Assembly (NCBI GenBank): GCA_015143295.1
Contig: JABCRI010000934.1
Coordinates: 1-64,000 of the forward strand
Direction of reading: 5' to 3'
Length of the DNA: 64,000 nt
DNA from: Tetracentron sinense
Taxonomy: Eukaryota > Streptophyta > Magnoliopsida > Trochodendrales > Trochodendraceae
The position numbers and the translations under genes were made by a program. Shown in pieces: positions 3,107 through 63,225 of the stretch (position 1 is the stretch's first letter; each line of letters starts with the position of its first letter). The notes beneath the pieces were generated by a model. It saw nothing but the letters and a program-made list of their open reading frames with translations. It was not told where the DNA came from and did no database searches.

Positions 3107-6100
3107 TGTCACGACCAAGTCCCTAGGAGTTAGGATACTCTGGTACGTGAACTCATTACCAAACCATCCCATATAACCTGAAATCCTCTTTACAACGTTA
3201 CGACAGGTGATGGAGAAGCATATTCAAAATCTACATATGATAGCAGACTCATAACATGGGCGGAACACACTAAAATTTTCCTTCTCTATACATACTGATG
3301 TTCCAATTTTATAATACACAAACCGGAGCGTAAAGAGTGAACATCCCTCACTTCCCACAAAATTATATACAAGACACTCCCTCAGCGGTCACTCCAACAA
3401 TGAGGCCCACCTCTCAGTACTCTGATCTCCTGAAGCCTCGGTAGGAGTGGCCCTCTGAACCCGCTCCAAAGGACGCTCATCACAAATATCGAAGGGAACT
3501 CTTCGACATCCTATGTACGGCTGAGTATGGATACTCAGCGTATACAAACCACTACTATAGTAATGATCATAACAACGAATACAATATCATATCACAGATT
3601 TAATCATCTCCATCATTCCTGAAATCAGAGGGAGGAAAACAACCATATCATGTGCATATATCCGGAAAATACTATCGGAAAACATCTTTTTACATCTTTT
3701 GTCTTTTGCATCTTCCTTATCCATCTTTTGTCCGAAAACCTCTGCCTGTCATTCTTTTATCATTTTTAACCTTTGCATCTACGGCATTATATACCTTGGC
3801 TTATATAGTTTAATTATCCTGTACGTTATTTAAATACTTGGTATTCATCATTTGCTACCTCCAGAGTCAGACAATAGCACCCTTACCACGTAAGCGGGGT
3901 GGCCTAAAGTTCTTCCTCACCCTTTGGCTACCTTCGCGGTGACAACCCTATCCATCTCCCTTCGGGCGCCTGCTATCATCGAGTCCAATGCCAGTATCCC
4001 TTTCCCTTTCAGGCGGCTTGCTATCGTCACAGCCCTCGGCTTTTTCCGATACGTTTTATCTCCTTTTTTTCTTGTAATCGATCTTGTGCTTCTTGTCTTT
4101 CTATATACATCTTTACGTCTTGTACTTCCGTATGTATCTTGTGCGTTCTTACATACTTTTTGTAACATCTTTTACTTCTTGTACTTCTTCTATAGTAGCT
4201 TCTTTGGTTCTTTGTACTGTTCATTTGGTTCCTTTGCATTTATACTTTTCTTGTGGTTCATTTGCATCTTATACTCTTCTTCTGCTTATTCTGTATTACA
4301 TCTTATATACTTGTTCTTTCTTCTTTTGATACCCATCATAAGAAAAACTCATCATGCATAGCATATGTGTCCGTGTAGCAATGTATATAAATAGTAGACA
4401 TTTAAAGGAAACACTTTGCATATTATCATATTGCCTATGCTTAACATAATTCCCCTCATCACAATCTCACTATACACATACATACATCTCCCAACTCACT
4501 TGAAATTCGGTTTTTTTCTACTTGTTTTTCCCAAACTTGATGGCTTTTACGTGCTCTTTCATCTTTGGATACTAACCTAAAAAACATCTCAATAAATACC
4601 ATCGTTTATTTGTTGGTTGAAAGTACATCGCATCATCCCTTTTAACGCACATCATCATTCATAGGAGTTTTCTCGATATAACACTGGTATCCATGATAAT
4701 CAATGGCTAGGAAGTTTGAGTTACACCATGTATAAGGCGATCTATGTCTATATTTGCAAGACAATCATATTTATCAATAATGGTTTATGAAATTAGAGCC
4801 TAGTAGAGTGTATCTACCTATGATATAAAATCCCTGTTGATCCAATCTTACAACAAACAAAAAACAAGAAGAAGCTTGAGGAAGGTTTTAAAGTGATCCC
4901 AAACTTGTGGACTTGATCCACTCAAGTCTCCAATGGCCGTGAGCCGAGATCCCAAGCTTGAGGTCAGCTTTGAAAGAGGGATTCAAGCGCCACCTTTTAT
5001 CTCACAAGAAAGCCCCTTTTTGATTGTTCCCGTGGCTAGTTTCGTGAGAAAAGCCATCTTGCATGATCCTTTCTCCTCTTTTGGGTCTTTGGAAAGCGTG
5101 AAGGTGGAATTTTGGGGTTGTCCTTATCTTGAGAGAACCCCTCTTTTTGGCAACCTAAGTTTCTTTCATTTTCTCTCAAAAAGTCCCGTCTGCGAGGTGT
5201 TAGAACCTGGTCCCCGAAAATGTGGTAGCTATATGGTGTTATGTTGAGGAAAACCCAAAAAATTATTTCTGGCGATCTCGCTCGAGCGGGTGTGCTTCCA
5301 TCGTCGCTCAGAGCGTGGTTGCTCCCGGGACTCAGAAATTCGTTTTGGTCTATCTCGCATCGAGCGGGGTTGATCTCCCATGAGCGAGCTTTGTCTGCAA
5401 AGTTATCTTTTGATTCTATTTTGTGCCATAAATGTGCTGACTCAGTGGTTCCGATTTTGACGATTTCAACTTGCGTTGGATCCGCTTTCGAAGGAAACAA
5501 CTTTTATATGTATTTATACAACTTCTATTTGAGTTTTACTCTTCCAAAATGGCTCGACATTCGACTGATCTCAAATTGGTTTCGCCATTCCATATTTGTC
5601 AACAGTCCCTAACTTGGAAATCGACTTCTGACTCAACCCCTGCTCAAATCAGGGAAGTGTATCAACATGAAGCTCTTGAAAGAGGGTTTCCACTGTACCT
5701 CTTCTAAAAATCAACGAATCACTCGATTCTCGACATCAGTTATCACACTATGCTCTTGAAGTTGAGGGAAATGCAAACAGGCCTCTTCAATACCTAGAAC
5801 ACTGTGAGTGCTTTCACACTCCTTTTCCCCTTCGTTCCAAAACCTACTTCACACCTCCATAACTCGTTTTCCCCTACGGTTTTTAACCCACCTCAGTGAT
5901 CGTTAAATTCCATCGACATGCTAAGTTCCTGTCCCCTCTTTATGCCTTGCGCACTAGCACTATCACTGACTATTCACTTATAATCATTAAACACTTAGGG
6001 TTTTATACCGCCTTTCTTTTACCAACTTAATAGTATATTATACTCCTTTGATACATCAAACATGGCCTAAACCTCACTTGGACTCACCATAATACCAACA

Positions 6101-6182
6101 CCAAGAGAGGCCTTATTACTTTACACACATCTGTAAGTTCACTATTCACATGAACAGTGAACCAATTACGAGGCCTCCTACA
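3107..6182 (-). mobile_element. Solo LTR S1 (TGTAG..GTGACA clan, Ty3-like)
   Basis: The 3076-bp insert opens TGTCACGACC and closes CCTCCTACA on the plus strand, and is flanked by the perfect 5-bp duplication CTATC at 3102-3106 and 6183-6187. No primer site, polypurine tract or coding domain is present, so it is a solo LTR. Its right end read on the minus strand (GTTCACTGTTCATGTGAATA) matches the start of LTR F at 50886. Open frames inside it show no recognisable domain. Family membership is inferred from termini and shared modules only. Confidence 0.8.
5225..5389 (-). promoter_or_regulatory. Putative S1 promoter: palindrome cluster plus weak TATA
   Basis: Four near-palindromic motifs of the CTCGCTCGAGCGGG type lie at about 5275-5292, 5303-5318, 5352-5369 and 5374-5389. 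In minus-strand reading they are upstream of a weak TATA-like CATATAGC at about 5228-5235. The layout is the same as in F, C, S3 and S4, although the motif sequence differs. The TATA call is weak. Confidence 0.5.
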
Positions 6183-6331
6183 CTATCTCTACTTTAAATT
6201 TCAAACAAACGTGTTGGGCTTTTGCCATGGTTTCCACTCTTAGACCCATACTATAGACATATATATATATAAACTAATAATGCACTATATAATTTTTTAA
6301 TTTTTAATTTTTTTTTTGTTCTAGATATACA

Positions 6332-6430
6332 AACTATCCCTTCAAATAATTTCGATTCATGACTTAGACATACCCTCTTTATCAAATCCATAAACCCGTA
6401 CCGTCTCTTTCTAATTGTCTAAAAAACAAG

Positions 6431-16641: not shown

Positions 16642-18381
16642 TGTCACACCCCGATTTCTAAAAGCGCACAACTCAACCCATTATCTATGGTCTGTCCTGA
16701 GATCAAGAATTTGGGCTTGAAGATTATTAATAATTAAATTTATAATTAGTATTTCAAGTATATTAATTTAGTTTTTTTTTTTTGTTTTTCGTATAAATAA
16801 TTATGAAATAAATAGTAAACTAAATTATTTTGGCCTGAAATTTTACAGAGACTGTGACACCCCGAACCCGCGCCTACTGGAGTAGTGTCCCGAGACGCGT
16901 GCCCGATCGTTCATACCAGCTTAGCAGAAGACTTTACCGCACAAATGCGAAAAAATTTAAACTTTACTCACATGGAGCAACATAAACTCTGGTCATCACA
17001 ATAGCCATCAACCACAAAACAAATACCTGTATATTATTTACCATTGTGTCTGTTTTACAAAACGGAGGCGCCACTAATGCGCTGGGACAAGTCTCTATCT
17101 AAAGACAAAAGTACAAGGTGTAGGATCCACACCCACTACTCGTCTGCTCCAGTATCTGTTGACATGAAACGTCAGTGAGCTATGAAGCCCAGTAAAAAAA
17201 AACCACAATCCATCTATACTATCTTCCACATTATAGCAAAACATCAATAAACACATAATATACATATGCCGGTTCATGATACAATTTAGTAATATATCTA
17301 AGTTATATTGTGACCCTCTGTCACACAGGGCCATCGCACCCAACACGAGATTCCCAATCTCGAATATCTTTCCCAATTATGGAGTTCGTTATGTAACATG
17401 TATTTCTTTTACCAAGTTATTTGTTTCGATCATCAACCATGTTTTACTCCGAGTCCTAAAACTCTGTTAACCGGTCTTTAGCCCATACATGTTCATCATA
17501 GAGTGGTCTCCATACCCTATTTGAGCTTGATCATTCCAAGCTCAACACAATTCCGGCATTACCCGGTCACATCATAACTTGAGTCATCCAGACTCTTGAA
17601 TACTGTTCCGGTATTTACCTGAACATGACCAACCATTGGGTGTCCCAACCCACACAAACCAGAATCCTGAAGATTCTACACAACTAGGGTAATCATCCTC
17701 CAAGGACTTACCACATATACTCTGACTGACAGCACCTACTGTGTATACACACCGCCATCTCACTAGTTATCAGTCACGAAGGAACCCCGGCCAACTTGTC
17801 TACCGTCATCTTTTGGCTATTCACTGGAGGCACCCCGGGCCTTACTAGACACCGTCTCTCCATGACGTACCACCTAGAAGGAACCCGATAGGCATAGTGC
17901 CGCCTCTTCGGACCCAACCATAGAGGAACCCCGATCAATACACTATATAATGCTCAGTCACTTTAGACATCTTTTAGGACTCCGACATCTCCCAGTTCAA
18001 CCAATTGTGACAACGCTTGAGCATGCCGGCTCAACTAACTACGAATCCGAAGATTCTAGACTATACACAATCACTACTCTGGATCTAGTCAAAGAGGATC
18101 TATGGATAGTAATCCACTCACTCCGGACTATCAGTCACGGTGGTCTACGCACTACGATTCCGACTATTCCAGTATCAAAATAATCATCCCATCATATACA
18201 CATGCCATGTCAAGTCAACAAATCGCTTAGCGATTGGTCACCCAATCGATCGTTGAACCTAAATTCTGAGTTATTCAACCCGAAACCGAGGGCTACGCCC
18301 CTCTGTTCAGTTCCTATGCCTCCCCATACAAGTACATACAACCCATTTTAACACACCATGACACGCATAATGTTGAATAAA

Positions 18382-19100
18382 GATCTAAGATCGGGAAGGA
18401 GCTCTGTAATTATCAAACTATACTATTGTTCCTAAAACGACAGACTAGGTTTTATTTAGAAATTCATATTGTCAAATCCAACCATCAGATCTCATTGCAA
18501 TTTTGATATGATTGACAAAGTAGGAAGGTCGCAATATGGAAAAATATGAGCATGATCTGAGATAAGGAAGGTTCCCTGTAATGATCAAAACCGTACTGTT
18601 AGCCTTAAAAACAGCAGACTAGGTTTTCCTTTAGAAATTTATATCATCCTATCTAAACATCAGATCGCAGTGAAATTTTGATATGATTTACAGATTAGGA
18701 AGATAAATATGTGGTAAAATGTATAGCATGATCTGAGATCAGGAGAGTTCCCTATAATTAGGAAAACCGTACTATTAGCCTTAAAAACAGCAGACTAGGT
18801 TTTCCTTTAGAAATTCATATCATCCAATCCAACCATTAGATTGTAGTGAAATTTTGATATGATTTACAGATTAGGAAGATAAATTTAGAGTAAAAATTTG
18901 AGCATGATCAGAGCTCAGAAAGGTTCCCTATAATTAGGAAAACTGTACTGTTAGCCTTAAAAACAACAGACTAGGTTTTCCTTTAGAAATTCATATCATC
19001 CTATCCAACCACCAGATCTAGTGAAATTTTGATATGATTTACAGATTAGAAAGATAAATTTAGAGTAAAAATTTGAGCATGATCAGAGCTCAGAAAGGGT
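18382..19100 (-). repeat. Four 175-bp tandem repeats inside solo LTR S2
   Basis: Units start at GATCTAAGATC 18382, GATCTGAGAT 18554, GATCTGAGATC 18730 and GATCAGAGCTC 18906, with a partial fifth at 19081. The period is 172-176 bp. Each unit contains CAGCAGACTAGG or a close form, and TTTTGATATGATT. They lie downstream of the TATA box in minus-strand reading, so in the transcribed leader. Confidence 0.9.
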
Positions 19101-19389
19101 CTGATATAAATAGCACAATTCGTATAATTTATCTAGTGGAATGAAAAATAGATAAGAAAGAGTTTTTATTACCTCTGGTACACGTGTTTCAAAGCTCCGA
19201 GAGATGATATAGACGCCGCCAATGTGCTCAACACGTCCAAAAATGTCAGGATATGCCTCTTTATCTCTCTCTCTAGACTTTCTCTCTTTAGAAAATTTCC
19301 TTTCTCTTTAGAATGTTTCTCTCTTGAAAATTTGGCAGGGCTTCGCCTCTCTCTCACTAGGATGAGAGAAATGGCTGGGGGGTGGTCTA

Positions 19390-19490
19390 CTATTTATAGA
19401 CTAGCCTAACCCACACATGCGTGCCAAGTGTCGCTTGGAAGGTGCCACGTGTTGGCCTGAGCCAAGACACGTGTCGCGGTTTGCGAATCG
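19390..19490 (-). promoter_or_regulatory. Putative S2 promoter: TATA box and upstream inverted repeats
   Basis: CTATAAATAG reads on the minus strand at 19390-19399. Directly upstream lie the inverted repeats CCAAGTGTCGCTTGG (19424-19438), GCCACGTGTTGGC (19444-19456) and the perfect palindrome GACACGTGTC (19467-19476). The two around CACGTG resemble the plant G-box core. Function is inferred from position. Confidence 0.55.
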
Positions 19491-21346
19491 CGACCGGTTT
19501 CCGGTAATATCGCCGAAAGTCATTCCGAAACCATACCATATGATTTTTGATTTTGACAAAACTTCAGGTGATCGATCTTGGGGTAGTCTGACACATGCTG
19601 TAAAAATTTTGGGGAAATCCGATGAGTTTCGACTGGCAAAAAGTGCGACCGGAAGAATTCGTAAAACCCACAAATTTTCTAATTTCGGATACAAAACACA
19701 CTGGGGTTTCGCCATATGAGATAATAAACTGCCGAAATAACAGACGGTCGTCCCCATGGCCTTCCAGCATGTAGTGGAACAATCCGCACAGATTTCGATT
19801 AGAAAGTCCGCTAAATATAGAGCCCCAATCGAAATTCGATACACTACGAATTCCCTGATTTTCTTGATGTTTCCACACACAGGACCTTCGCGGTTTCGTG
19901 AATTGATGTGCAACTGAATCGGAATGATAGGTGGATGTCCGGATAGCCGACCAGCACATTATGTGGGCAGATCGAATAAATACACTAATTTCGTAGTAGT
20001 GCAACCCAATTCCGAGTAATACATACTTTACACAAATTTATCAAACACACAACTAATTAACCTCAATTAAGGACCGATAATCCAAAATTTTATTATATTA
20101 AAATTCTGGGTCACTACAGAGACATACTTCTATAAGTCTATGAACTTCGTAAAAGATATCAGAATTTTCTGATCATGAAAAAATATTTTGTAAATATTTT
20201 TCCGAAACTAAACTTAAAATTTCAAGAAAACAACAATGTCGCATTGCTTTTATTTAAAATATTTAAAACTAAAATTTGGTCCCTATACCTATCATGTCTT
20301 CCTAAGATATATAAATGAATTCTGGAAAATAAATTTACTTCCAAAGTTCTTACATCATTCACTAATTTCAATTAAATAAAAAAAAACATTAAAAATATCC
20401 ATTAAAACATGATCCATTAATTTTGTAATTAATTCCGAATCATGAGAAAAGTCTTCATATTTATTCTTCACTTCTGAGAATCCATTACTCTATACCTGAA
20501 GATATTGACATGAAGGTCTAATGAGCTATGAAGCCCAATAGAAAAAATTCACACTCTTTCTTATAATTAATTTATATAAAAAAAAAGCATGCAATATAAA
20601 TACATTGAAAAATATATAAATTAACAATATAATTCATGCAAGTATGATGGCACGATTTTTGCACCAACTCGGCCTTACTATCATCACCCATTTTAGTACC
20701 ATTTCGATTAAATTGACTATCACAAGAAATGGATCTTCCTCGAGGGCTTTATGGCCTTTCATCCAATGATCCACAATCCTAGCTTACTCATCATTTAGGG
20801 GCTCTCACCGACGACATCATATAACCGTCCTTAATGCATCAATCATGCATAACATGCTATTTACAACATAATAATCATTGTATCACATATTTTTTTATCT
20901 ATTCACAAATCTCATATGATAGATTTTTACATTATTTGTGTAATAATAAACAAATAAAAATTAATGCATGCTATTATAATTCTGAAAATCAAACATTTAT
21001 GTGATTTTTTTTTCTACAAATTAATTATAACAAAAAGAATGGCAAAAACCTACCTAGATTTTTTTCTTGATTATTAATTTCCTCCCAAAAATTTTCGATT
21101 CAAACTTTTCACTTGTTTTCTCGGGTTTGATCTATGCTTCTCCATAATTCTTATTTCTCATTTCTTTCTCTTTTTCCTGTAATCTCTCTCTCTCTTATAT
21201 TTAGTTCTTTTAAAATTTAAAGAGATTTTAAAGATTTTAAAAGAGATCTAATCTAAACTAACTTTATCTAAGCTAATCTCTATCTCATTATTTTAAATTT
21301 AAAACAAATGGTGGGCTTTTGGCCCATGGGTTTTCCACCTTAAACC

Positions 21347-30725: not shown

Positions 30726-31050
30726 CCCCTGACCTAGACAAAGAGGGTTTATGAATAACATTCCACCCACTCCTGACTATCAGTCATAGAGGACTAAACC
30801 ACACCACCATCAATTGCCATCACAACCTCTATTGGGTGCGTACCTGCCCATATAGGTCATTGCCCCCTCAAGGTAACATCTTTGAGTTCATAAACTCAAT
30901 ATCACCCCGGGTCCATAAACTCAATACAACCTTGGGTCTATAGACCCGATGCCATCCTAACTCTCCCGACTATCAGTGACGGAGGAATTTTGGCTTTTAA
31001 TAGATACCGTCTCTCCAGACCTAGTCAAGGAAGGACTGCACATAGGATTT

Positions 31051-35160: not shown

Positions 35161-35350
35161 AAGGCAAAAATTTTGAAAAACTCAATTTTTATCAACTGGA
35201 ACTATTTCTTAAGCTTTTAATCCTTCCTATAAATGATTTTAAGAGATTTTAAGGTATTTAAACACACAAAGCGAGTTAAGACACAATACATCAATCAATA
35301 TATAGATTTAAAAAAAAAAAAAAAAATTTGTTCAATCTTAGGCAAAATCT

Positions 35351-36777: not shown

Positions 36778-36879
36778 TAAATTCTACACTTGATTTCTTT
36801 CAAATTGATTTAATTCTTCTTGCATACCAATTCTCCAAGATTCATTATTAATTTCTTCAAGGGCATTCTTAGGTTCAAT

Positions 36880-37929: not shown

Positions 37930-38420
37930 TTATCTTTTAAAAACTTGGTTTTTTTGTAAGCCTTTAACTAGATCTTTTCTAGATAATTTTGATAGTAAAT
38001 CCATACTTGCATGGCTTAGCCTTCTATGCCATAACCAACTAGTTTCATTAATAATTGAAAAACACATAAGGTTTTGAGAGATAAGTTCATCAAAATCAAT
38101 AGTATAAACATTTTCATGTCTATGAGCTATGAATAGGGTAGTAATGTTGTCCTTATCCTTAATGATGCAAACATTTGATTTAAATGAAACATTTAGACAT
38201 TTGTCATACAATTGACTAATGCTAATTAGGTTATGTTTAAGACCTTCAACAAGTAAGACATTTTCAATAAACATGGTCGAGTTCTTACCAACATTACCTA
38301 TGCCGATGATCCTCCCTTTCACGTTGTCCCCGAAGGTCACATGTCCTTCATCATTTGGAGAGATTGAGATAAATAGATATTTGTTCCCCGACATGTGCCT
38401 TGAACATCCACTATCCAAGA
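37930..38420 (-). pseudogene. Element C protease and GAG-pre-integrase region
   Basis: The aspartic protease active-site word DSGCSRHMSG is near 38415-38385. It is followed by the GAG-pre-integrase segment with NLISISQLYDKCLNVSF and WHRRLSHASMDLL, which includes the zinc-binding His pair of integrase. Confidence 0.85.
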
Positions 38421-38629
38421 ATCATCTTGTCTTGGAGGAGTTAGATTTCAAACAAACTTCTAGACAAAGTTTAAGTAATTCCAACATATGTTCCTCCCGA
38501 AACCCACACAGTTTTGGATGGAACCAATCTTGATTTTTGAATAGTCTTGGGAGGGTGAGTTCCCTTTGGGATCCAAACCATGTGTGGTCCTTTGTGAATG
38601 ATTTTGGGAGTGTATGATCCTTTTGGGAC

Positions 38630-40200: not shown

Positions 40201-40234
40201 TAACTCAAGATGGTTAGATCAAAAATAGAGCACA

Positions 40235-40248
40235 GAGCTCTGATACCA
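40235..40248 (-). other. Primer binding site of element C (tRNA-Met)
   Basis: TGGTATCAGAGCTC reads on the minus strand two bases inside the 5' LTR end. It is complementary to the 3' end of initiator tRNA-Met, the usual copia primer. Confidence 0.92.
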
Positions 40249-40250
40249 AT

Positions 40251-41636
40251 TGATGCCCAGATAATGGACCCTAGAGGGGGGGGGGGGTGAATAAGGTTTA
40301 TGGCAAATTAAAAATTTTACTCTAAGTGATATTTGTGGAAATTAAAAATTATCACAACAACTACCAACTAAAATCAGAGATAATAAGAGGAAGAGAAAGG
40401 TAAAGATACCAGACACTAGTTATGTTATCGAGGTTCAACAACCTACCTATGTCCCCGCCTTTAAGCTCTCCTGCTTCAAGGATTTTCACACGATTCACTA
40501 ATCGTACTCTTCTTTTCCGACAGAGAGCAAGCCTTACAATCATTTTTCAGGCTCAGGAGGAACCTTTAACAATCCTTTTACATGCTAAGGAATAACCTCT
40601 TCAAGAGACTCTCTCTTGGATACAAAGAAGACTCTCTTCTTAACAGGGTGCAAGAATCTCTGTTTCTTGACTTTCTATAAATACAGAAATTGATGGATAT
40701 TAAATCTGAATTGAAAGCTCCTAAATTAAGCTAAATAAAAATTGAATGCAAAGCTTACAATCTCTCAAGATTGATTGGAATTGAATGCTCAAGGAGAGAG
40801 GGATTTGGATTCTGCGTAGTTAATGGAAAAATAGAGTATTGATTGCTGAGAGTTAATGAGTGATGAATGAGCAATAGAACAGTGATTGAAATTTTTAGAA
40901 TTATTACTTTTTATCATAAATCAACTCTATTTATAGTTGGGCAATCAATATGGCCGTTTGGAGTAGCATTGAATGCGAACTAGCCGTTGAAAAATAGCCG
41001 TTGAAGATTTTTCCCGCAGACACTCATCGACGAGTGAGGGAGATATGGGCTTGAGTCATCGCCGAGTGGAGACAGAAGCTATTGCTTCAATTTCTTGTCA
41101 CCCACTCGTCGACGAGTTTACTGAATTTTTCCAGTAAACTCATCGTAATGAGACCAAGAAGATGGGAAACATGCTAGGACCCTTAGGCAATTACATTATC
41201 AATATTTTAATCATTTTTAGGGCCTTAGAATGATGTCCATATTATATTAGGTAACCTAGGGTCTATCTAGGTAATCTTCGAGCAATTCTTTTCCAATGTC
41301 TTGGGGACTATTACAAGGTCCTAGACACTTTTTCTTAGCCACTAGTTTTCATGAAAGATGATCTTCAATCTTGATTTGAGAAGCTTCTACTTTTGATGGA
41401 TCTCCATGAGTTGACTCTGAGTTTTTGGTGCTTCTTAGAAGAACTAGCATTTGAACTTTTGACTTTGATGACTTGAGCTCTTTTATCCTTTAATATCTTG
41501 AAGTTTGATCTTTAAGAATCTCTTCACTGAAATTTTACACACTCAATGGAAATATTAGTATATCAAGAGTCATTTCATTATTTTACTATCATCGAAACAA
41601 TTTAGGATACTAAGAGTTATAACCTTGAGGCTAACA
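40251..41636 (-). mobile_element. Element C 5' LTR
   Basis: A 1386-bp LTR pairing with 31051-32441, with the same termini. It carries a G run near 40275-40287 and a TATA box on the minus strand at 40927-40936. Confidence 0.92.
40927..41117 (-). promoter_or_regulatory. TATA box and three palindromes in the C 5' LTR
   Basis: CTATAAATAG (minus) lies at 40927-40936, and near-palindromes lie at about 41021-41036, 41053-41069 and 41102-41117. The partner LTR has four, so the copies differ by one palindrome unit. Confidence 0.75.
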
Positions 41637-41804
41637 GATTTAACCCAGGTTAGGTTTTCTAACTATAGGAAATCCCCAATTAATTCAAGCCTAGCTTTAT
41701 TAAATTGATTACGCTGGGCCTCGAGCCCGTGGACCAAGTCCAAGGGTATTTCGTTCTGGTGTGGAACATTACCGACCGATGAACCATTTCATCGCTTTAC
41801 ATGC

Positions 41805-42050
41805 ATTCAAAGATCATAACATCATACGGGTTGTTCTGATAGGGAACATATTCGAACTGATAGGTCCGTCACTCGCCCTACAACATTCAAACACCATCAC
41901 ATCATACAAGGTCATCCCCTTAGGGACATATCCGGGACGATGGGTCCATCCATCACCCTTACCAACTTCAAACACCATCACATCATACAAGATCGTCCCC
42001 TTAGGGACATATCCAGGATGATGGGTCCGTCCATCGCCTCTACCAAATTT
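41805..42050. repeat. 80-bp tandem repeats in LTR B
   Basis: Nearly three units contain ATCACATCATACAAG, CCCCTTAGGGACATATCC and a GATGGGTCC end. They begin shortly after the right edge of element C inside LTR B. Confidence 0.8.
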
Positions 42051-42304
42051 TAATAATTATTACCTTATGCACTCACATCATTCCAAGTCAATACATCGCG
42101 TATCAATCAGTCGCCGAGCTTAAATTTCAAGCTGATGAAGCACGAAACCGAGGGCTACACCCTTCTGCTTCATCCACATGCAATACTATTTCTTCCATAC
42201 ATAATCAACCGGGTCTCCGACCCTTTTATTCATACATCACACATTCACACAATTACAAAACAACAATCACATAAGGATCCCAAAACATTTTGACAACTTT
42301 CTAT

Positions 42305-42995
42305 ATTTTCCTATTTTAACCTATGTTAGGCTCAAAAGTAGGAAAAATTCAACATGAACCTCGAAGAGGGTTTTCATACATTTCCAACGGCTCAAGAATC
42401 GTTCAATTCTGATAAAGTGTGACAAAACTAAGGTTACCTAAAGTTGGTTGTTCCTGAGATGAATTACAGCAGACTAGCCTATGGTTTTTGGCCATTTACC
42501 TTAGTTAGACTCCCAATCAGGGACAATGTTCAACATTAACATCGAAGAAGGTTTTCATACATTTTCAATGGCTCAAGAATCATTCGATTCCGATAAAAGG
42601 TGACAAAAATAGGGCTCCCTAAAATTGGTTGTTCGTGGAACGAATTATAGCAGACCATCATATGGTTTTCGGCCATTTGACCTCACTTAAACTCAAAACC
42701 AGAAAAAATATTCAACATAAACCTCGAAAAGGGTTTCCATACCTTTCTAATAGCTTAAGAATCATTTGATTCCGATAAAGGATGACAAAATTAAGGCTCC
42801 CTAAAGTTGGATGTTCCTGGGACAAATTACAGCAGACCAACCTATGGTTTTCGATCATTTGAACTCACTTAGACTGAAAATCAGGAAAAATATTCAGCAT
42901 CAACCTCAAAGAGGGTTTTCATACCTTTTCAAAGGCTCAAGAATCGTTCAATTCTGATAAAGGGTGATAAAACTAGGACTCCCTCAAGTTGGCTA
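42305..42995 (-). repeat. About four 181-bp tandem repeats in LTR B
   Basis: The shared core AACCTCGAAGAGGGTTTTCA or a close form recurs near 42355, 42538, 42718 and 42899, a period of 181-183 bp. Each unit also has TTCNATTCNGATAAAG and CAGCAGACYA. They lie downstream of the B TATA box on the minus strand, as the 175-bp repeats do in S2. A single related unit occurs in S4 near 63445-63580. Confidence 0.88.
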
Positions 42996-43213
42996 TAAAT
43001 AACAGGGAAAATAAAGAAGATTTTTACCTCCCTACACAAACTTTGAGGCTTCGTAGGATGAAACGGACATTGCCACTGTGCTCAAAACGCCCAAAAACCC
43101 CAAGGTGGACCTTCTTTCTTCTCTACTTTCTCTCTCCTTTTTCTCTCTCTAAAACCAATTTCGGAAGAGCCTCTTTACTGAATGAAAATGAGAGAAAATG
43201 AGAGGGCTGGCCC

Positions 43214-43272
43214 CTCTATATACAGGCCAAGACCTCACCTACATGGCGAGGCCATGTGCTTAGCACATGGGC
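43214..43272 (-). promoter_or_regulatory. Putative B promoter: TATA-like box and inverted repeat
   Basis: CTGTATATAGAGG reads on the minus strand at about 43214-43226. Upstream is a perfect 8-bp inverted repeat CCATGTGC-TTA-GCACATGG at 43252-43270. Position relative to the TATA box matches the palindrome clusters of other LTRs here. Confidence 0.5.
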
Positions 43273-43910
43273 CCGATGACGTGGTCGTTGATCGGTTGAC
43301 TGGTTTGACTGGTATTCACTTTTTTGCATGTACACGGCCCCCCAAACCCTACTAAATGACGACTGATAGTGACGAAACTTTAGGTGACTAAACTTTGGAC
43401 AGTCCGACACCCGCTGTAGAAATTTTGGGAAAAAATGTTGAGTTTTGACTGTAAAAAATAAGTCCTGAAGAAAATTGTAAAACTCACAAATTTCCTGATT
43501 TTGGACACAAAACACGCTACAGTTTCTTCATTTGAGATGATGAACTGCTGAAACGATAGACAATCGACCACAGGGTCTACCGACATGCAGTGGTACGAGT
43601 TTCGCAAATTTCTATTTGAATACCTGTCAAATATTGAGTCTCAACTAAACTTCAAAAACCTGTCAAATTTTCTTACGTACAAGGCCCTCACGGTCTCGTG
43701 AATCGATGCACAACATGTGATCGTCCCAATAATCGACCGACACGCTGTGTATGATTTTCGTGGAAAAACATTGACGTTTTATCGATATAACCCAATCCCA
43801 AAAAAAACCCGCTTTCCATAAATTTATCAAATACTTAACTAATTAACCTCAGTTAAGGACCTATAAACCCATAATTTTATTATATTCAAATTTCAGGTTG
43901 TTACAAAATG

Positions 43911-46010: not shown

Positions 46011-46945
46011 AAGATTGGGCCTGGTAGGCCAAAAGGGTTTAACCAGAGTTAAACAAGTCTAACCGTGATTAGGGTTGCTAACCATGATTGGGCAAGGTTC
46101 AAAGTCCAATTTTATGGTCCTTTAAAAGTTGATTGATGATTTTTAGGGATTTTTTCCAAAATTCTCCAAGGTTAAGTGGGATTAACTATGGTTAAGACAT
46201 GAGTTTAACCATGGTTTATCCGGTTAACCATGATTAGGCAATCTACCAAGTTGGATTTAGAATCATATTGTCTTTTTAGATTTTTCTGGAATTTTTGGGA
46301 TTTTTCAGGGTTTAAGTAGGCTTAACCATGGTTAAACCGAGTGTTAACCATGGTTAAACTCATTTACCGTGGTTAGGCATGTTTACACATTCAAAAGTTG
46401 ATATTTTCTGTCATTTCAGATTATTTTGGATTTTCTGTGATTTTTGGGAAATTTTCTAAGGTGGTTAGATCAGCTAACCACGGTTAATTCTTAATCAGGA
46501 TTGGGTTAACCTATGGTTAAGGTGTGTGGCAGTCTAGAATGGGCCCAGGGATGTTTGGGCAAATCCTAGGAGCTTCCCACCAGGCCTGGGTCTCTATAAG
46601 GCCCCGAAACACAGCAACAAGGGAATGACGGTAATCTGTTTACCATCATTCCAAACATTTCCCTGTTTGGAATGACGGTAGACAGTCTACCGCCACAAAA
46701 GATTCTTTTTTTAATCAAGGTTTAGGCCCTTATAACTCGGGTTAGGGGTGGACCCACAGGGGTGAAGAGCATACCTCTGGGAAGGCCCTGGGCCTGTTGT
46801 GGGCCCTGGGCCATGCTTGTGGTGGGCCCCACATAGGCCCAAAAGTTCCTGCACATAAAATGACAGAATGTCGGTAATGTGTTTACCGACATTCTGAAAG
46901 CTTCTAGATTTCAGCAAATTAACCATGATTAAGCTTAACCCATGG
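46011..46945. repeat. Recurrent TTAACCATGGTTAA-type palindromes
   Basis: Variants of the palindrome recur near 46060-46085, 46165-46185, 46204-46225, 46320-46370, 46465-46490 and 46915-46940. Forms such as TTAACCATGGTTAA (two close copies near 46325-46355) are nearly perfect. Others differ at one arm (TTAACCATGATTA). Confidence 0.75.
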
Positions 46946-47785
46946 ACCTAGAAAGACCAGGTTAGATCAAGGGAAGGTCTGGGGACCTATTTTGGACCCT
47001 GGAATGGATCAGGGCATGCTCAGGTGGGGGCCACAAGGGCTGCAACAGTAACCACTAGGAATGGCGGTACCGAGTTTACCGCCATTCCTAGGTTTTTCCC
47101 AAAAAATGCAAATGCCCTACGGGGCTGCTACTGTGAGGGTTCCAGGGGTTCCCTCATGACTTGAGGGACCCCTAGAAGCTCTGAGGCGACCTGAAGTGCT
47201 GGTTTTTCCTTAATGGGTTCTGCACACCTATGAAGAAGATGCGAGAGCCCCCTGTCATGGGTTTTCTGTAAAAATAAAGGATGATAGTCCATTAGAAGGA
47301 CTAGGGTCTCACAATAGCATTAAGACAAGAACAAAAATGGGGTAGGGGGATGCCCTACCTTACTGCTGCTTCTCCTGCTATGGTGGTGGCGCTACTGATA
47401 GAGGTGGTGGAGCATGGTGGTGCTGTACAGGAAAAGGGGGAGAGCCGGGGAAGCTTCCAGAGGGCTCTAGAGGTTGCTAAGGAGGCGCTCAGGCTTGATG
47501 CAATGGCTTGGGCTTGGATTTTAACAAGGGGTTGAGGTGGCTTCTTTTCCAGTGGTTTGAAGGCCACAGGGGGTATCTCCTTTATAAGCTAGGGGTTGGG
47601 GTCACCTCTGATATTAGTACCAGGGTAGACGGAGGCTCAGAGGGGCGGAGAAGCCATCCCAGAAGCGTGCTTGAGCTCGTAGGGGTGTGGGTGTGCTTCT
47701 GGATTATGTTACAGGGAATGACGGTAATATATTTACTGTCATTCCCAAACCTATGCAAAAATTAAAGTCGGTAAATAAATTACCG
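46622..47785. repeat. Series of six inverted repeats with core AATGNCGGTA
   Basis: Hairpins lie at 46622-46652, about 46673-46695, 46864-46896, 47055-47091, 47714-47746 and 47769-47785. The 46864 one has a perfect 14-bp stem with TGTGT loop. The 47055 one has a perfect 15-bp stem with a 7-base loop. The variable stem base changes with its partner (TGTCGG pairs CCGACA, TGGCGG pairs CCGCCA). They occur in the Ogre/Tat-like LTR. Confidence 0.85.
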
Positions 47786-47839
47786 CCAAGGATGGGTTTT
47801 GCCCAGCAGGCCCCTGGCCTAGGTAGGTATGGGGAATTG

Positions 47840-48120
47840 GTTTGAATTTTGGGCCTGGGCTTGGGCCTAGGCCGAGGGTTTGGACCCTAGGGGGGTTTTG
47901 GACCTTAGGGAAGTTTTGGACCTTGGGGTTTAGGACTTAAGGGCTAGGACTTAGCCTAGGGCTAGGCTTTGGGTTAGGTCTTATGGTTAGGCTAGGGTTT
48001 ACCTAGGGTTAGGTCCTAGGTCTAGGCTAGGGTAACACCTAGGGTTAAGCTAGGGTTTTCTATGGTTAGGGCTTTAATTAGGATTTGTTCTAGGATTTAA
48101 GCTATGGTTAGGGGACTCGG
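47840..48120. repeat. Degenerate CTAGGG/TTAGGG-rich tract
   Basis: Irregular repetition of GGGCTAGG, CTAGGGTTAG and similar words is present without a fixed period or a TTTAGGG array. I see no gene. It probably belongs to the U3 side of the neighbouring LTR. Confidence 0.6.
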
Positions 48121-48127
48121 CTGGGGG

Positions 48128-48203
48128 GTAACCATAGTTAAGAATCCTTAACCATGGTTAGGATAGGGGTGTAAAAATTGGGTGCTTGTAGGACATATAA
48201 ATA
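48128..48203 (+). promoter_or_regulatory. Promoter-like region before the E extra ORF
   Basis: ATATAAATA at 48195-48203 is preceded by GTAACCATAGTTA (48128) and TTAACCATGGTTA (48148-48160). A CT-rich leader of about 190-250 bp follows, then ATG codons at 48391 and 48453. The layout copies the TATA plus palindromes before the homologous ORF in element C. It is unclear whether the palindromes belong to E or to the adjoining LTR. Confidence 0.5.
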
Positions 48204-48390
48204 AACCCCATGTTCTGAACACTTCGCATATTCCATTTTTCTCTCCTCTTCCTAAACTAGTCGATTCCTTTTGCTCCAAATAAACTTATTCTCCATCTTC
48301 CTCCATCCAAATCCTTTCAAATCTATTTTCCATCTATCCTAACCCCTCCAAACCCTACAATCCTTCTTTGCCCTAATCTCAATCACCCTC

Positions 48391-49772
48391 ATGAAAAAGA
48401 CCGAAACCCTAGTTCGGATCCCATCTCTGAGAAGCAAAAATCAGACAAAGGCATGGGTGTTGCTTCCTCCTCCTCTCCTCCCATCCGATCCAAGAAAGGT
48501 CCTTCAAAATGCAAAACACTCGAATTTAAAGAAAAACTCAAAGAAAATTTCAGAAAAAGGAAAGTGGTATATGGTAAGGTTCTAAACTTCGTCCTTTTTG
48601 ATTCTTGGAAACTTAGGATTAGCACTCTCTTTAGAGATTTGAAATGGACATCCTTCCTAGAGTCCAATGAACCTATGTACCCCGAGTTGGTAAAACTTTT
48701 CTACACTCATTTCAATACAACCAAGAAACCAAGATTGTCACCTTCTATCTTTGTGGGAAAGACATCTCATTTCATCGAGATAATTTAAAAGCCATTTTCA
48801 AAATTCCCCATGGAAATTTTCAGTCCTATACCAAAAAAAAAATGGACTACTCTTGATAGTTTTGAGGTGATTGATACCTTAAAGCTTATGTGTACAAACC
48901 AAGACACCACTCAAGCCTTTCAACCCAAGGTCAAGGACCTCACTCTAGAGGCTAGGATCATTCATCATATTCTTACTTATAACATTCTTCCTAGAGCCAG
49001 TGGTACCTCGGTGTTTTTGTCATGTGGTGAATCCTCACCACTAAGCATATTGACCTCCCTTACCCTATTATTCATACCATGAATGACAATGTAAAGAGGA
49101 ATACAAGGAACCTCCCCTATGGTCAAGCTCTCACCCATCTCTTCCGTTACTTCAAGATCCCCTTGGATTCCTTGCTTGATAAGGAAGAAGTCTCTCACTA
49201 TGACATCTACAGTAAGGCCACCATGTTCAGGATGTGATATCTGTGGTAAGAAGAGAGGGGTTGGATTCCTAAGTCCTTCATTGAGGCAACTCCCTCATCA
49301 GCTACAAATGCCTCCTCTTCTAGGAAGTAAGGCAGAGGTAATCCAGGGACTGGATCCTCCTTTGGCACTCCTTCTGGAACCCCTACTGAGACACCACTAG
49401 AATCTCAGAGACAGCAGCTCAGACCGAGGAGAGTGGACCATCTACTGAGCCATTGCCAACTCGGAGGCTATCTTTGATGATGATCTACTTGGCCTACTGA
49501 TAGGCAAGATAGACTCCCTCAGCTCGAGCATGGTGAGCTTCCATGCCAAGGTTGGATACTCTAGACACTAGAGTTGGAAATGTGTTGTGGATATGGATGT
49601 TTTAAAGAACATAATTGATGCCACCACAAATGCAGTAGAAAGGAAAGCAAATGATTCATTTGAGCAAGCACAAAGAATGAGTGATGAGATCTCCCTCATC
49701 AAGGGTAGAACAAATTTGATTGATAGCAAGCTCAATGTATTCGGACCTAGGCTCAGCCAGATGACAGCTTAA
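48391..49772 (+). pseudogene. Plant transposon protein region of element E
   Basis: A homologue of the extra ORF of element C. Shared words include KVLNF/KVPDF, MYPELVKLFYTHFN and KVKDLTLEARIIHHILTYNILP. The later part (49587-49772) is polar and probably coiled coil (AQRMSDEISLIKGRTNLIDSKL). It lies directly before polypurine runs and a 3' LTR, as in C. Broken in several places. It could be the downstream half of element A, which has the same strand and lineage. Confidence 0.75.
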
Positions 49773-50885: not shown

Positions 50886-51750
50886 TGTAGAACCCCGAAA
50901 ACTTGGATTCACTGTTCATGTGAATAGTTCTTGTAAAAAGAGCCAAAAAGCCTTGATGTAATTATGATTTATTTTTTGAAATGAAAAGTAGTGTGATGGA
51001 TATTTTAAAACCTTAAAGGAAGTGTCATTTGGTGTTTATGGGTGTTGAAAAAAATAGGAAAAATGTCCTAAGTAGAATAGAATGTGAAAAATTAGCAAAA
51101 TAGGCAAAATCAGGTTCCACTCATCGACGAGCCCATCTCAGGAAAAACCACTTGTTGGCGAGTTCAATGGACAGTGTTGAAATAGAATGTCTTGAAGACA
51201 TTATCATCGACGAGTACTGTTTGGAGACCCAAACTCGTCGACAAGTACACCCACTCGTCGATGAGTCCAACACGCGAAAAATCGGGAATAGTTATGAATA
51301 ATAGGTATTTTCGATTTTTGGCAACCCTAACTCTATAAATACCCAATTTTCGTGGGATTAAGGGTTTTAACACCTTGAGAGACATTATTTGAGAGAAAAA
51401 GAGAGAGATCTAGGGTTCTAAAACAGGCTTTCCATTTGAGATCAAGGAGGAGCTCGATCCTTACTTCCAAGGCTTCCTTAAGCTTGGATCTTCTTCCTCA
51501 AGTGTGGATATTCACTCTCAAGCTTGAGTTCATGTCCAAGTCATCTTTCAAGCCAAGATTTGACCTTTGCAAGGTAAGTATACCTTATTAGTTGATTTAG
51601 TGATAACCTAGATCCTAAACCTAGATTTTAAAGCATGAATGTTGAGATTTGGGTATTAGCAACCCCTATTTTCTAAATTGATCATATTTCCCTAAAATGT
51701 ATTGACTATAGAGCATGTTAGTGATAATCTAGATCTTAAACCTAAAATGT
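50886..51750 (+). mobile_element. LTR F, TGTAGAACCCCG family, partial
   Basis: It opens TGTAGAACCCCGAAAACTTG, matching the end of 25351-25617 and, further in, that of S1. It carries a plus-strand palindrome cluster, TATA box and GA-rich leader. AAG|GTAAGTAT at 51571-51580 is a strong splice-donor match. The right edge is not defined; I could not find the matching end, so 51750 is approximate. Confidence 0.65.
51118..51341 (+). promoter_or_regulatory. F promoter: five palindromes and TATA box
   Basis: Near-palindromes of the ACTCGTCGACGAGT type lie at about 51118-51133, 51149-51165, 51203-51217, 51231-51248 and 51251-51268, followed by CTATAAATAC at 51333-51342. The motif is the one used by element C, not that of F's own relatives S1, S3 and S4. 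Confidence 0.7.
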
Positions 51751-51934
51751 ATTACTGAAAAGGGAGTTAAAGAACTTTTGGAGGTTCTCTGCAACATCTA
51801 GACGCTCTCCTTGCTTCACAATCATCTCTATGATTTCCCCTCTAAACTACTTAAAACTATTTTTTCATATCTCTATTTTGTTTTTGTTATTGATAAGGAC
51901 TCTATTAGTAAAGAGTTGGAATGACTCTAATAGA
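51751..51934. other. Unassigned sequence
   Basis: AT-rich sequence between LTR F and the CACTA terminus. I see no gene and no repeat I can name. Confidence 0.4.
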
Positions 51935-52030
51935 CACTACAAGAAATCTACTGACTAGTAATGGAATATTGGTGACGCAATAAGACGGAACGGTCCACCG
52001 TCACTAATGGACTGTCCCCATTAAGCATTT
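51935..52030. mobile_element. Terminus of a CACTA (En/Spm) DNA transposon
   Basis: CACTACAAGAAATCTACTG at 51935 is a typical CACTA terminal inverted repeat. Within the next 70 bp the inverted words GGTGACG and CCGTCACTAATG occur, as is usual for subterminal repeats of this superfamily. I did not find the matching TTTCTTGTAGTG end in the window, so this is a fragment. Confidence 0.6.
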
Positions 52031-56193: not shown

Positions 56194-58389
56194 TGTCGCG
56201 ACCCAAAACCCACCCTAGGAGTTAGAGTGAACTTTGGACGACTAATCATGGCTTACATGACTTGCTTGACAAACCAACCTGCAAAAACCCACAGAGCATA
56301 TACAATAGAGGATGACAGCGGAAACATAACTATAAAACACAGCGGAAGTCTAACAACCTCTAAGTATATATACATGGTCCAAGTTTAATACAAAGAAATC
56401 AAAACAAAGAAAGTGCGGACATACCCGCCAAAATACATGGATATAATCATTCATGCTCACCCACAGGTAATCCACTCAGAATCTAACACCACCCACTGAT
56501 AACCCTCTACGAGAGGTTCCTCCAAAGGCTCCTCGACGTACTCCTCCTCCACCCATGGACCAGGAGCACAAACATCAAATGGAGCAGCAGCTCCCTCAGA
56601 ACCTGCCGACATAAGAAGTACGGCTGAGCATGGAATACTCAGCGGGTACCAAGCACTAACCAACAGTCATAGCATACGTATAGCATACATAAAGCAGGAA
56701 ACAATTCACGCATATAAAGCAGGAATGATTCATATCATGGCAATAAAGTAAAGCAATATAATTCATCATGTTTGCAATCATAAAAGCCGGTAAAACCCTT
56801 GAAATCTTGTGCACTTGACTTGACTGAAATTACCATTTTTATGCTTGAAACCTTGTCTACCGTGTCATGCGTGTCATGCTTGTATCATGCGTGTATCATG
56901 CTTGCTTGTTCTGAAAAGTAATCTACTTGTGAGGGAAGGGAGACCCTTCTTCCTAGAATGCTCATGCTTGTCCTTCCACTTGTGAGATTCACTTGTGAGA
57001 TGTCCTTGTGAGATGCACTTGCGAGGGAAGGGAGACCCTTCTTATGATATGTATGCACTTGCGAGGGAAGGGAGACCCTTCTTATGAAAATGCATGATTG
57101 TCTTGTCCTTGCCAAAAGCGAAGTAAAACATATCGTAGGATATGCCCCACCTCTAAATCCCATTCTTGAAAACCTCGGTAAATCATGTCATGTATGCGTG
57201 CTCGTGAGGTCGTGTGCATACTTGCATTTGAAATTAAATATGGCATTGAGTAATTCATAACAGATAACAGCAATGATTTGAGCAATTTAGTATTCATATC
57301 ATTTAGGAAAAGCGAACAATCACACTATCATGACCCTAGCAATTTCCATAAACCTTAAACATGAAATTTATTAATTTATTATTCATCTCATTCACCTTGA
57401 CATTTCATCAAACATGGTGCATTCATTATTTATTAACCCTATAACATGCTTTTCTAGGTGGGTTATGCTCACATCATACGTGTTTGTTCATTATGGATAC
57501 AATGCCCTCCCCATTTCATTCTTCACATCATTTCACACGGCATCCAATCGCCAATTCCGTCTCCATTCACCATTCAGACCCGTCCATCTCATAGCACATG
57601 TGTAAATGAAAGAAAACAAAGAGAAATAAAGTAAAAGAAGGAACTATAATTAGGAGGGTAGCAAGAAGTACCGACCTTGAAGAAATGAGGAAGAAACCCC
57701 TTCCAAAAACGACCGTGAGGTGCTGCCCTAGCTTGGGGAACACTCTCCACGAGTGCTTGAACCGTGATCTTGGAGAAAAGCCGGACTTGAAGTGATCTAG
57801 GGTCTCAAAACCCTTTGATTTCTCTTCCAAAGACAAGCCCTAGGTTGGAATCGCTTTCTCCCCTTTCTCCTATTCTCTCAAACTCTCTAAGTGTCGAATG
57901 ATACCCTAAAGGCTCGGGCAAGACTCTTAAGGTAAGAGTAAACCGACCAAAAGACCATAATACCCTTACTGAAATTTCTGCAAAAACGCGAGTACCGAGC
58001 GATCAGTGTTTATGACCGATCGATCGGTTGCCTACCGAGCGATCGGTGTGTTGACCGAGCTCTCGACCAAAAATCAACTCTCTGGAAAATTTTCCCATAC
58101 AAAAATCTTGATCAGTCGATAGCTACCGATCGATCGGTTTTGGACCGATCGATCGCTCTATGGACCGAGCGATCGGTTGCCTGCAGGTTCAGACTGTTTT
58201 GGCCATATCTTTTGACTCGCTCGTCGGATTTTGACGATTCAACTTGCGTTGAGTTTGTACTTCGAAAAGGAACATTTCTGACGTTTCGGAATTTTCAATT
58301 TCTTCCTTATTTATTAATTGTACTACTTTAAAGGCAAAATGGCTATGAAAGTGTCATGCATTAAATGTGAAAAGGTCCGGGGCTCTACA
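56194..58389 (-). mobile_element. Solo LTR S3 (TGTAGAGCCCCGG..GTCGCGACA)
   Basis: A 2196-bp insert opening TGTCGCGACCCAAAACC and closing GGGGCTCTACA, with a perfect target duplication GTTGA (56189-56193, 58390-58394). It has no primer site or coding domain. Shared blocks with S1 and S4 include CTGAGCATGG..ACTCAGC near 56620 and GACGATTCAACTTGCGTTG near 58232-58250. An ACTTGCGAGGGAAGGGAGACC repeat recurs near 56930-57090. Confidence 0.85.
57994..58179 (-). promoter_or_regulatory. ACCGATCGATCGGT palindrome cluster of S3
   Basis: Seven or eight forms lie at about 57994-58008, 58015-58029, 58034-58048, 58053-58067, 58124-58138, 58144-58158 and 58164-58178. Two forms alternate, ACCGATCGATCGGT (perfect palindrome) and ACCGAGCGATCGGT. 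In minus reading the cluster is upstream of the GA-rich leader, as in S4. Open frames here (for example 58140-58331) are translations of the motif. Confidence 0.8.
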
Positions 58390-61292: not shown

Positions 61293-62983
61293 TGTAACGA
61301 CCCCAAAATCCCACAAGGCTAAAATAGGATTTTGGAATCGTCACATTACTAAACCTGCTTAAAGACCATGCATTCAAGGCTTACTACACGAGTATCCAAA
61401 AATGAGAGTAATAAAATTCCGATATATAAGCTATAACCAACCTGCACAAGTATACGGTCAACATATACAACTCACTATAAACCAAAAGGTATGAAATACA
61501 CAACTCTAAAAAAAGTCACTGAGCAACATCATCAGTCTAATACAAAACTCTCTCAACCAACGAAACATAAACTAAGAGGTGTAGCCACCCAAGACTCCGG
61601 CTCCTTCCTCGATGGGCTCACCTTCTCCTCCTTCCTCAATGTAAGTTTCTTCAACCCAAGGCTCCGCCGTGTACTCCTGCTCTAAACCTGCCAAGACAAA
61701 AGTCTGGCTGAGTACAAAAGTACTCGGTGTATATAAAATCCAACCAACAATAATAATACACCTGCATTTAGTTAGAAACATATCCAATAGCATGATAACA
61801 TAATCAGAGTACGGAAGAACGTGTGCGCATATACATCATATCATCACCTTGACTCGTGTACTTGTGAGAATCTTAGACATAGAAGACAATACACTTATGA
61901 ACTGCTTATGCTTATGAGACCACGTGCTTGTGAGATGCTTATGCTTATGCACTTATTCAGATCATACAATGATGTGACATGCCGTTCTTGGTGGATACGG
62001 ACCATGTCTAAGAATCAAATGGTTGACATGCCGTTCTTGGCGGATACGGACCAAGCCTAAGAATCAAATGTAATTGACATGTCGTTCTTGGCGGATACGG
62101 ACCATGCCATGCTTATGCTTATTCAGAATGTCATACGTATGCCATGCTCATGCTTGTGGTCCACATGTGTGACTTGTGAGACTCTTATCTTAACATACAC
62201 GTGCATATGTGCTTAAGTGTCGAAATTAACATTCGAGTTGGTAATTGCTTAGATTCCGATCTCCCACCATGGAAACTCCACTATACTGTCCCATACCAAA
62301 TAGTTAGAGAATTCCCGGTTTGAGAGATGTTCCTCTAAGTTCTTACCTTCCCGACTATCAATTTCCATGCAAGTAATTAGACATACTTAACAAACAATTC
62401 ACATATACATATCTTATCATAATTCATATCACAATTCATAATCAATTTACCACCATTTCATAAGAGTATAATAGCATTTATCCTTTCAAGCATTTTCACA
62501 AACACCTTGAGTACGCATAATGTGAATCCATTTCCCTTCTATATTTTCAAGCATTCATCAAATCATAATTCATCCATACAATCAATTCACTATTCACATC
62601 CACATATTAATCCCATCCTCCATACATTTCCCATCCTCCATATATTCTATCCACATCCAATCCACATTTCCATCAATAATTAGCTTACTTCATAGAAAAT
62701 TTGGGAAAAATGCATTTAATCTCTATTCTATCATTCCTATCATATTAATATTCACAAAACATTAAAATAGAGTTGATTAGGATAGTATATTGACCTTAGG
62801 AATCCTTCCCTTGGATTCAGAACGCTCCCAGAGTGATTTGGGGAAGCTTTCCAAGCTTGCGGTATCCAAGCTATCTCCTTCTTCCCCAAGAAAGCCCTCT
62901 CTCAAAACCTTAGGGTTTCTCTCCCTTTTTGCCAAATTAGGTTAGAAATAGGTAGAGTATTCTAATACCCCGAAATAGTATCC

Positions 62984-63225
62984 CTATTTATAGCCCCAAG
63001 GTCTGAGAACCAAAAGACCAAAAAGCCCTTACTAAAATTCTGCAAAAACACGAAGGACCGAGCGATCGGTGGTTATGACCGATCGATCGGTTCTCAACCG
63101 ATCGATCGGTGCTCTTGACCGGGCGATAGGTCAAAAAAGCACTCACTGGAAATTTTCCCCATATAAAATTTTGGACCAGTCGATAGATACCGATCGATCG
63201 CTACTTCTGACCGAGCGATCGGTGC
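62984..63225 (-). promoter_or_regulatory. S4 promoter: TATA box and ACCGATCGATCGGT cluster
   Basis: CTATAAATAG reads on the minus strand at 62984-62993. Upstream lie six or seven palindromes at about 63057-63072, 63078-63092, 63097-63112, 63118-63132, 63189-63204 and 63209-63224. Same motif and spacing as S3. Confidence 0.75.

Follow-up and report, generated by a model that had tools for sequence, protein, structure and literature searches.

In Ty1/copia Sireviruses, palindromic repeated motifs (RMs) are clustered in the long terminal repeats (LTRs) shortly upstream of the TATA box and occur again before env, each element having its own word (PMC2829016). In the available part of that source, RMs are described as Sirevirus-specific within Ty1/copia, with gypsy elements outside the element set; a CGG-CCG core is present in 12 of the 13 published RMs (the Tnd-1 word lacking it), and motifs were seen before env but no internal promoter could be identified with certainty. 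Palindrome clusters of maize Sireviruses mark the LTR regulatory region and carry excess small RNAs, and one of their words also occurs in maize Helitrons, according to accessible passages of PMC10760457 and PMC5311732. A comparable layout was analyzed here in a stretch of 64,000 nucleotides of Tetracentron sinense (assembly GCA_015143295.1, contig JABCRI010000934.1, positions 1 to 64,000), hereafter the window, for which an earlier note had described palindromes before the TATA or TATA-like boxes of LTRs named S1, S2, B, C, F and S4, and at the equivalent place in S3. Arrays of palindromic boxes were found in LTRs of two retrotransposon superfamilies, with words that switch between related promoters and one word shared between superfamilies.

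As in the published RMs, palindromic repeats stood upstream of TATA and before the env position, the word varied by element, and the centre TCGA of the published Vitis and Tnd-1 words recurred in four of the six words found here. Unlike the RMs as presented in the available text (PMC2829016), the arrays also occurred in Ty3/gypsy chromoviruses, one word was common to both superfamilies, words switched, a TATA box accompanied the internal array, and the words of element C and of a second Sirevirus-like fragment, D, lacked the CGG-CCG core. The maize clusters, as far as those sources could be consulted, have the same regulatory placement in the LTR and differ in belonging to copia elements of maize and in the emphasis on small RNAs (PMC10760457, PMC5311732). 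No report of arrays in chromoviruses, of word switching or of word sharing was found in the open-licence literature searched; a text search for the six words returned, among the matches listed, only CTCGCTCGAGCGAG, in a context apparently unrelated by title. Insertion-target palindromes were set aside, as these are short target sites and not repeated boxes in the portion of the source seen (PMC6911290).

Palindromic arrays in two superfamilies

The LTRs were located by self-comparison and by reading of the letters. The window is AT-rich and contains 330 exact palindromes of at least 10 bp, so that single palindromes mean little and repetition is the useful test. Copies (up to three mismatches) of the best near-palindromic 14-mer were counted in the 300 bp upstream of TATA boxes picked by eye and compared with 300 dinucleotide shuffles; F was tested from the position homologous to the S4 TATA box because this copy has lost its own. 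F and S4 displayed six copies each, the two C LTRs four and three, S3 three, and the internal arrays of C and D six and five, counts that none of the 300 shuffles reached in any case. The S1 window copy, with a single box, was no better than chance (106 of 300 shuffles; 335 of 1000 in a separate shuffle test), and no repeated near-palindromic 14-mer was obtained in S2 or B (count 0 in both).

The palindromes reported before TATA were thus recovered in F, S4, both C LTRs and S3. For S1, the cluster was decayed in the window but present in relatives, while S2 and B dropped out of the layout, B having one gapped palindrome and no array. The "several unrelated families" shrank to two superfamilies, a chromovirus clan (S1, F, S4 and S3) and Sirevirus C, because S1, F, S4 and S3 have LTR parts in common and S2 and B form one other clan, separate from both.

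S1, F, S4 and S3 are assigned, by sequence, to a single Ty3/gypsy chromovirus clan. The F and S4 LTRs were 77% identical over 374 columns, and S1 matched S4 on the upstream side of the array and S3 on the downstream side. Open frames just before the 3' LTRs of two F-type loci (L013, L015) and two S3-type loci (L024, L043) were gypsy integrase ends, with SH3_Tf2-1 well over cut-off in all four, rve below cut-off in L013 and L015, and Chromo at 20.8-23.9 bits, just below its cut-off of 25.1, in L013, L015 and L024 (not seen in L043). In both the F/S4 and the S3 family, a chromodomain thus followed the gypsy integrase end, and the S1 family is provisionally placed with them through LTR homology to S4 and S3.

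Relatives elsewhere in the genome kept the arrays. The 15 F loci cut out came from nine distinct places, one of them (L005) showing seven boxes spaced 21/19/71/21/19/21. From 43 S3 matches, 30 were cut out, and four to six ACTCGTCGACGAGT-type boxes were present in 28 of these and three in the other two; the window copy is spaced 31/52/31/20. For S1, 14 of 40 matches were cut out, window copy included: the other 13 loci had two to four CTCGCTCGAGCGAG-type boxes, with the full four in L063, L067, L072 and L073. The four-box layout was 21/50/21, and the TATA box of L072 lay 60 bp after the last box start. For C, 12 of 40 matches were cut out (L052 spacing 21/50/32). Some spacing of 19-23 bp was found in all eight arrays measured, and 14 of the 24 distinct spacings fell in that range.

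C is classified as a Ty1/copia Sirevirus on several traits of its sequence. The Sirevirus polypurine tract, AGGGGGAG-AT-TG, stands at the 3' LTR junction with two further copies in the linker; the junction of 5' LTR and primer binding site, CA-ATTGG-TATCAGAGC, is exact in sense; a poly-C run near the LTR 3' end accompanies a copia polymerase (RVT_2, E 2.4e-38 and 1.1e-14); and a palindromic RM cluster lies upstream both of TATA and of the env position. The CGG-CCG core of Sirevirus RMs was absent from its word, ACTCGTCGACGAGT. The internal array of C comprised six boxes in pairs with members 21 bp apart, and the ATG of the open reading frame (ORF) in the env position followed 127 bp after the internal TATA box; the three open stretches there had no Pfam match at E 0.1. 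D repeats this plan of array and TATA box before a gene with a different palindrome, TTAACCATGGTTAA: two boxes 20 bp apart, a TATA box 48 bp after the last box start, then an open frame with a weak Pfam Transposase_32 match below cut-off.

Words across the genome

Exact words were counted over the whole 1.16 Gb genome, whether or not they lay in LTRs, with the reversed pattern as control; copies are inherited with elements and are not independent events. Counts were 30,033 for ACCGATCGATCGGT (3 reversed), 17,916 for TTAACCATGGTTAA (3), 7,435 for ACAACGNGTACGTTGT (4), 6,889 for TGCGATCGATCGCA (1), 2,111 for ACTCGTCGACGAGT (1) and 529 for CTCGCTCGAGCGAG (1). With reversed controls of only 1-4 genome-wide, a chance origin of the words was rejected. 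Five of the six words were fully symmetric and one nearly so, and five contained CG, in line with the earlier claim that most do. That the word differs by family while symmetry and position are kept was likewise upheld, in thousands of genome copies, so that neither a lack of enrichment nor confinement to the window copies was found for the chromovirus and Sirevirus clans, S2 being unenriched and B holding a single palindrome.

Word switching was followed from CAACGCAAGTTGAATCGTC, a 19-bp module that lies upstream of the arrays and is present in 17,721 exact genome copies (reversed control 0). The 22 module sites sampled were those met first on contig 1, all before 18.5 Mb. An exact box of known type lay within 450 bp at 14 of these (10 of the ACCG, three of the ACAACG and one of the TGCG type); 12 of the 22 had no ACCG box, and four of the latter were read. 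L076 displayed eight TGCGATCGATCGCA-type boxes followed by a TATA box, L077 and L079 ACAACGNGTACGTTGT-type boxes with no TATA within the 400 bases read, and L078 an eroded S1 type. Between S4 and L076, the stretch upstream of the array was identical at 72 of 82 positions and the TATA stretch at 71 of 78, while in identity the arrays were no more alike than shuffled ones (0.71, a value inflated by the use of gap-free columns, vs a shuffled background of 0.73). Owing to their common core CGATCGATCG, the array alignment score of 8.0 was slightly above the highest value among 200 shuffles (6.5). In the chromovirus clan, one word has thus been replaced outright by another, in both halves of the dyad, between flanks with about 90% identity. 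The half-site chimera ACCGATCGATCGCA was found 1,319 times, whereas about 12,100 copies would be expected by hand calculation if halves combined freely, a rarity given little weight because shared descent alone could produce it. As a separate observation, no symmetry was seen in the CAACGCAAGTTGAATCGTC module, which is near-constant among S1, F and S4.

Word sharing was seen between the superfamilies, the word of chromovirus S3 being identical to that of Sirevirus C, ACTCGTCGACGAGT, with unmatched spacers. Exchange of arrays between the two elements was set aside; comparison of masked spacers gave nothing convincing (best 13 bp, E 0.027, many comparisons), which would still allow an old exchange.

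Window layout and remaining LTRs

Features are collected in Table 1; the reading direction was minus for S1, S2, B, C, F and S4 and plus for S3. C is inserted in B, with a GATTT repeat on both sides.

Table 1 Coordinates of LTRs, arrays and associated features in the window
Feature	Position	Strand	Remarks
S1 LTR	3107-6182	-	putative chromovirus clan, by partial LTR homology
S1 decayed TATA position	5228-5235	-	relatives: CCTATAAATACCCC
S1 box	5277-5290	-	CTCGCTCGAGCGAG type; more decayed boxes up to ~5390
S1 module copy	5459-5478		nearly unchanged relative to F and S4
S2 LTR	16853-20118	-	
S2 G-boxes CACGTG (two)	19446-19475	-	TATA at 19393-19400
B LTR, split by C	28779-31050 and 41637-43905	-	
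B gapped palindrome CCATGTGCTAAGCACATGG	43252-43270	-	single; 1/300 shuffles; TATA-like at 43217-43224
C, assigned to Sireviruses	31051-41636	-	LTRs 31051-32441 and 40251-41636, 91% identical
C 3' LTR TATA	31728-31733	-	
C 3' LTR array	31806-31922	-	four ACTCGTCGACGAGT-type boxes, starts 31806, 31838, 31888, 31909
C env-position ORF, first open stretch	34463-34852	-	ATG at 34852
TATA of proposed C internal promoter	34974-34979	-	12 bp past last box
C internal array	34991-35159	-	upstream of env-position gene; pairs 34991/35012, 35055/35076, 35125/35146
C 5' LTR TATA	40930-40935	-	
C 5' LTR array	41022-41117	-	three ACTCGTCGACGAGT-type boxes, starts 41022, 41054, 41104
D, Sirevirus-like fragment	~46039-48161	+	
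D TTAACCATGGTTAA-type boxes, among others	46182, 46205, 46224, 46322, 46344, 46363, 48128, 48148	+	
D TATA box	48196-48202	+	upstream of open frame 48261-48785
S3 LTR	50886-51934	+	cut short, no 3' end found; assigned to chromovirus clan
S3 array	51119-51266	+	five ACTCGTCGACGAGT-type boxes, starts 51119, 51150, 51202, 51233, 51253
S3 TATA box	51336-51343	+	
F LTR	56194-58389	-	solo; GTTGA flanks; assigned to chromovirus clan
F array	57994-58177	-	six ACCGATCGATCGGT-type boxes (≤3 mismatches), starts 57994, 58015, 58034, 58125, 58144, 58164
F module CAACGCAAGTTGAATCGTC (sense)	58233-58251	-	
S4 LTR	~61293-63727	-	solo; 5' end (sense) decayed; near-repeat at borders; assigned to chromovirus clan
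S4 TATA box	62985-62992	-	sense GGGGCTATAAATAGGG
S4 array	63057-63223	-	six ACCGATCGATCGGT-type boxes (≤3 mismatches), starts 63057, 63078, 63097, 63118, 63189, 63210
S4 copy of 19-bp module	63289-63307	-	sense CAACGCAAGTTGAATCGTC, one change

S2 and B were rejected as members of the array layout by the shuffle tests. The longest exact palindrome of S2 is 10 bp (reached in 293 of 1000 shuffles), and its conservation is uninformative because the 40 matches listed are 95-100% identical. Both LTRs carry tandem repeats, of 176 bp in S2 (18434-19098) and 96 bp in B (29922-30721). A stretch of the S4 LTR (63437-63569) and a 182-bp tandem unit in the B LTR (42314-42990) share about 77% identity over 133 bp, a module common to two otherwise separate LTR clans. 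Positions 141-25350 consist of tandem units of about 2 kb, 73-91% alike in self-comparison and interrupted by S1 and S2; an Rfam search of the window, this array included, gave no match. The S3 LTR is ended or interrupted at 51935-51946 by CACTACAAGAAA, which we take to resemble the end of CACTA DNA transposons.

Candidate dimer operators and alternative explanations

Probably, the arrays serve as dyad operators for homodimeric DNA-binding factors that drive LTR and internal promoters. Each array would be an upstream activating region with three to eight copies of a family-specific dyad operator of 14-16 bp, often 19-23 bp apart, the last box starting about 25-100 bp before TATA. Beyond the boxes, symmetry, copy number, place, conservation, switching and sharing observed here, we infer that a sequence-specific protein, most likely of the host, would bind each box as a homodimer, and that several dimers would jointly activate, not repress, the LTR promoter, giving the full-length RNA; in Sireviruses, dimers would also activate a second promoter before the gene in the env position. 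A dimeric factor would explain why families keep symmetry, and the word would change when a family changes factor or when the factor itself changes. A homodimer on DNA is favoured because the dyad has a constrained centre and is repeated at about two helical turns, and because the place before TATA is fixed in LTR and internal arrays and a word is common to two superfamilies. Among the three proposals of the earlier note (dimer-bound operators, hairpin sources of small RNA, anti-silencing sites), the operators fitted best, given the constrained S3 centre, the reuse before an internal promoter and the word common to two superfamilies.

Family statistics were obtained from strand-oriented loci, and the matching rule used for boxes was applied to flank segments as well. 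Non-CpG box bases varied less than flanks in F (0.061 vs 0.264, 0.8% of segments being as low) and S3 (0.065 vs 0.176, 5% as low), and the central T and A of S3 varied as little as the outer bases (0.04 and 0.07, flank 0.22). Several observations weigh against dimer operators. Conservation was weak in C (0.021 vs 0.058, 16% of segments as low) and S1 (0.068 vs 0.092, 35%). Position 9, a central one, was changed in 49% of F boxes and position 2 in 70% of S1 boxes; with so many imperfect boxes, strict symmetry is not required. Longer spacings were only weakly phased to the helix (p 0.05, in a jitter test that used L076 spacings of 21,20,21,21,19 where those measured are 21,20,21,20,20,51,21), so strict phasing was dropped, and TTAACCATGGTTAA sites are frequently 33 bp apart. 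Nor would frequent word change obviously be expected of a fixed host factor. A switch that keeps symmetry is what a changed dimeric factor would be expected to leave, and self-recognition of nucleic acids would allow it too.

Such self-recognition underlies the possibility that the boxes form hairpins in RNA or single-stranded DNA, with transcripts crossing U3 folding, feeding small RNAs and being retained or tolerated for a structural role, which we consider unlikely. As RNA, all five arrays tested gave stronger folding than shuffles (z -2.5 to -5.8) whereas S2 did not (z -1.2), excess small RNAs lie on maize Sirevirus clusters in the material available from PMC10760457 and PMC5311732, and self-pairing would leave the word free with symmetry kept. 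Any array of palindromes folds well, however, and self-pairing explains neither the shared exact word nor the fixed place before TATA, while S3 shows constraint on the centre, the would-be loop. Double changes at paired positions, counted within each family, were about as frequent as expected from single changes and rarely compensatory (six against 7.2 expected at S3 pair 5-10); the exception in number, F pair 4-11, had six against 0.8, none compensatory. The earlier suggestion of hairpins as small-RNA sources was thus sustained by folding but not by compensatory change. Pairing of genomic RNA for packaging through a self-complementary 3' U3 is hardly probable. The 3' end of the RNA includes U3, and any palindrome would serve, leaving the word free to change; but the unit of array and TATA box also stands before an internal gene, its position is tied to TATA, and a word shared across superfamilies would favour wrong pairing.

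Anti-silencing or methylation-sensing sites, at which a bound protein would keep the promoter open in the manner of VANC with word and protein coevolving, were given the same low probability as hairpins, and this explanation overlaps with dyad operators. VANC targets of VANDAL are likewise dense short non-coding motifs whose word differs between related families, five of the six words contain CpG, and F has retained its box CpGs well (0.049 vs 0.289 in flanks). In the portions of PMC5735166 and PMC10398659 available, however, VANC motifs (e.g. YAGTATTAY) are not described as palindromic, and, unlike the arrays, they belong to DNA transposons, have an element-encoded binder and lack a tie to TATA. 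No element-encoded factor was found here, though whole elements were not searched for one. CpG transitions made up 128 of 211 S3 box changes, so most S3 copies look methylated, and the absence of CpG from TTAACCATGGTTAA led to rejection of explanations by CpG alone. Neutral growth of tandem repeats by slippage, with palindromes kept by chance or ease of expansion, seems very unlikely: short-period repeats are common in these LTRs and genome copy numbers reflect element amplification rather than many origins, but six words, five of them fully symmetric and one nearly, box bases conserved above spacers in F and S3, and boxes that agree while the spacers between them differ all speak against it.

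Extending dimer operators further, we tentatively suggest that large plant LTR retrotransposons of any superfamily may generally share this array as a promoter architecture, in which whole arrays switch words and superfamilies converge on or exchange words because of competition for one set of homodimeric host regulators. Each word would then be a co-activation address, used in Sireviruses for a second, internal promoter as well.

A feature described as Sirevirus-specific now extends to chromoviruses. Near-identical promoters with different operator words, and one word in two superfamilies, provide natural experiments, through which what activates plant retrotransposons, and why their promoters change fast, becomes testable on a handful of 14-mers.

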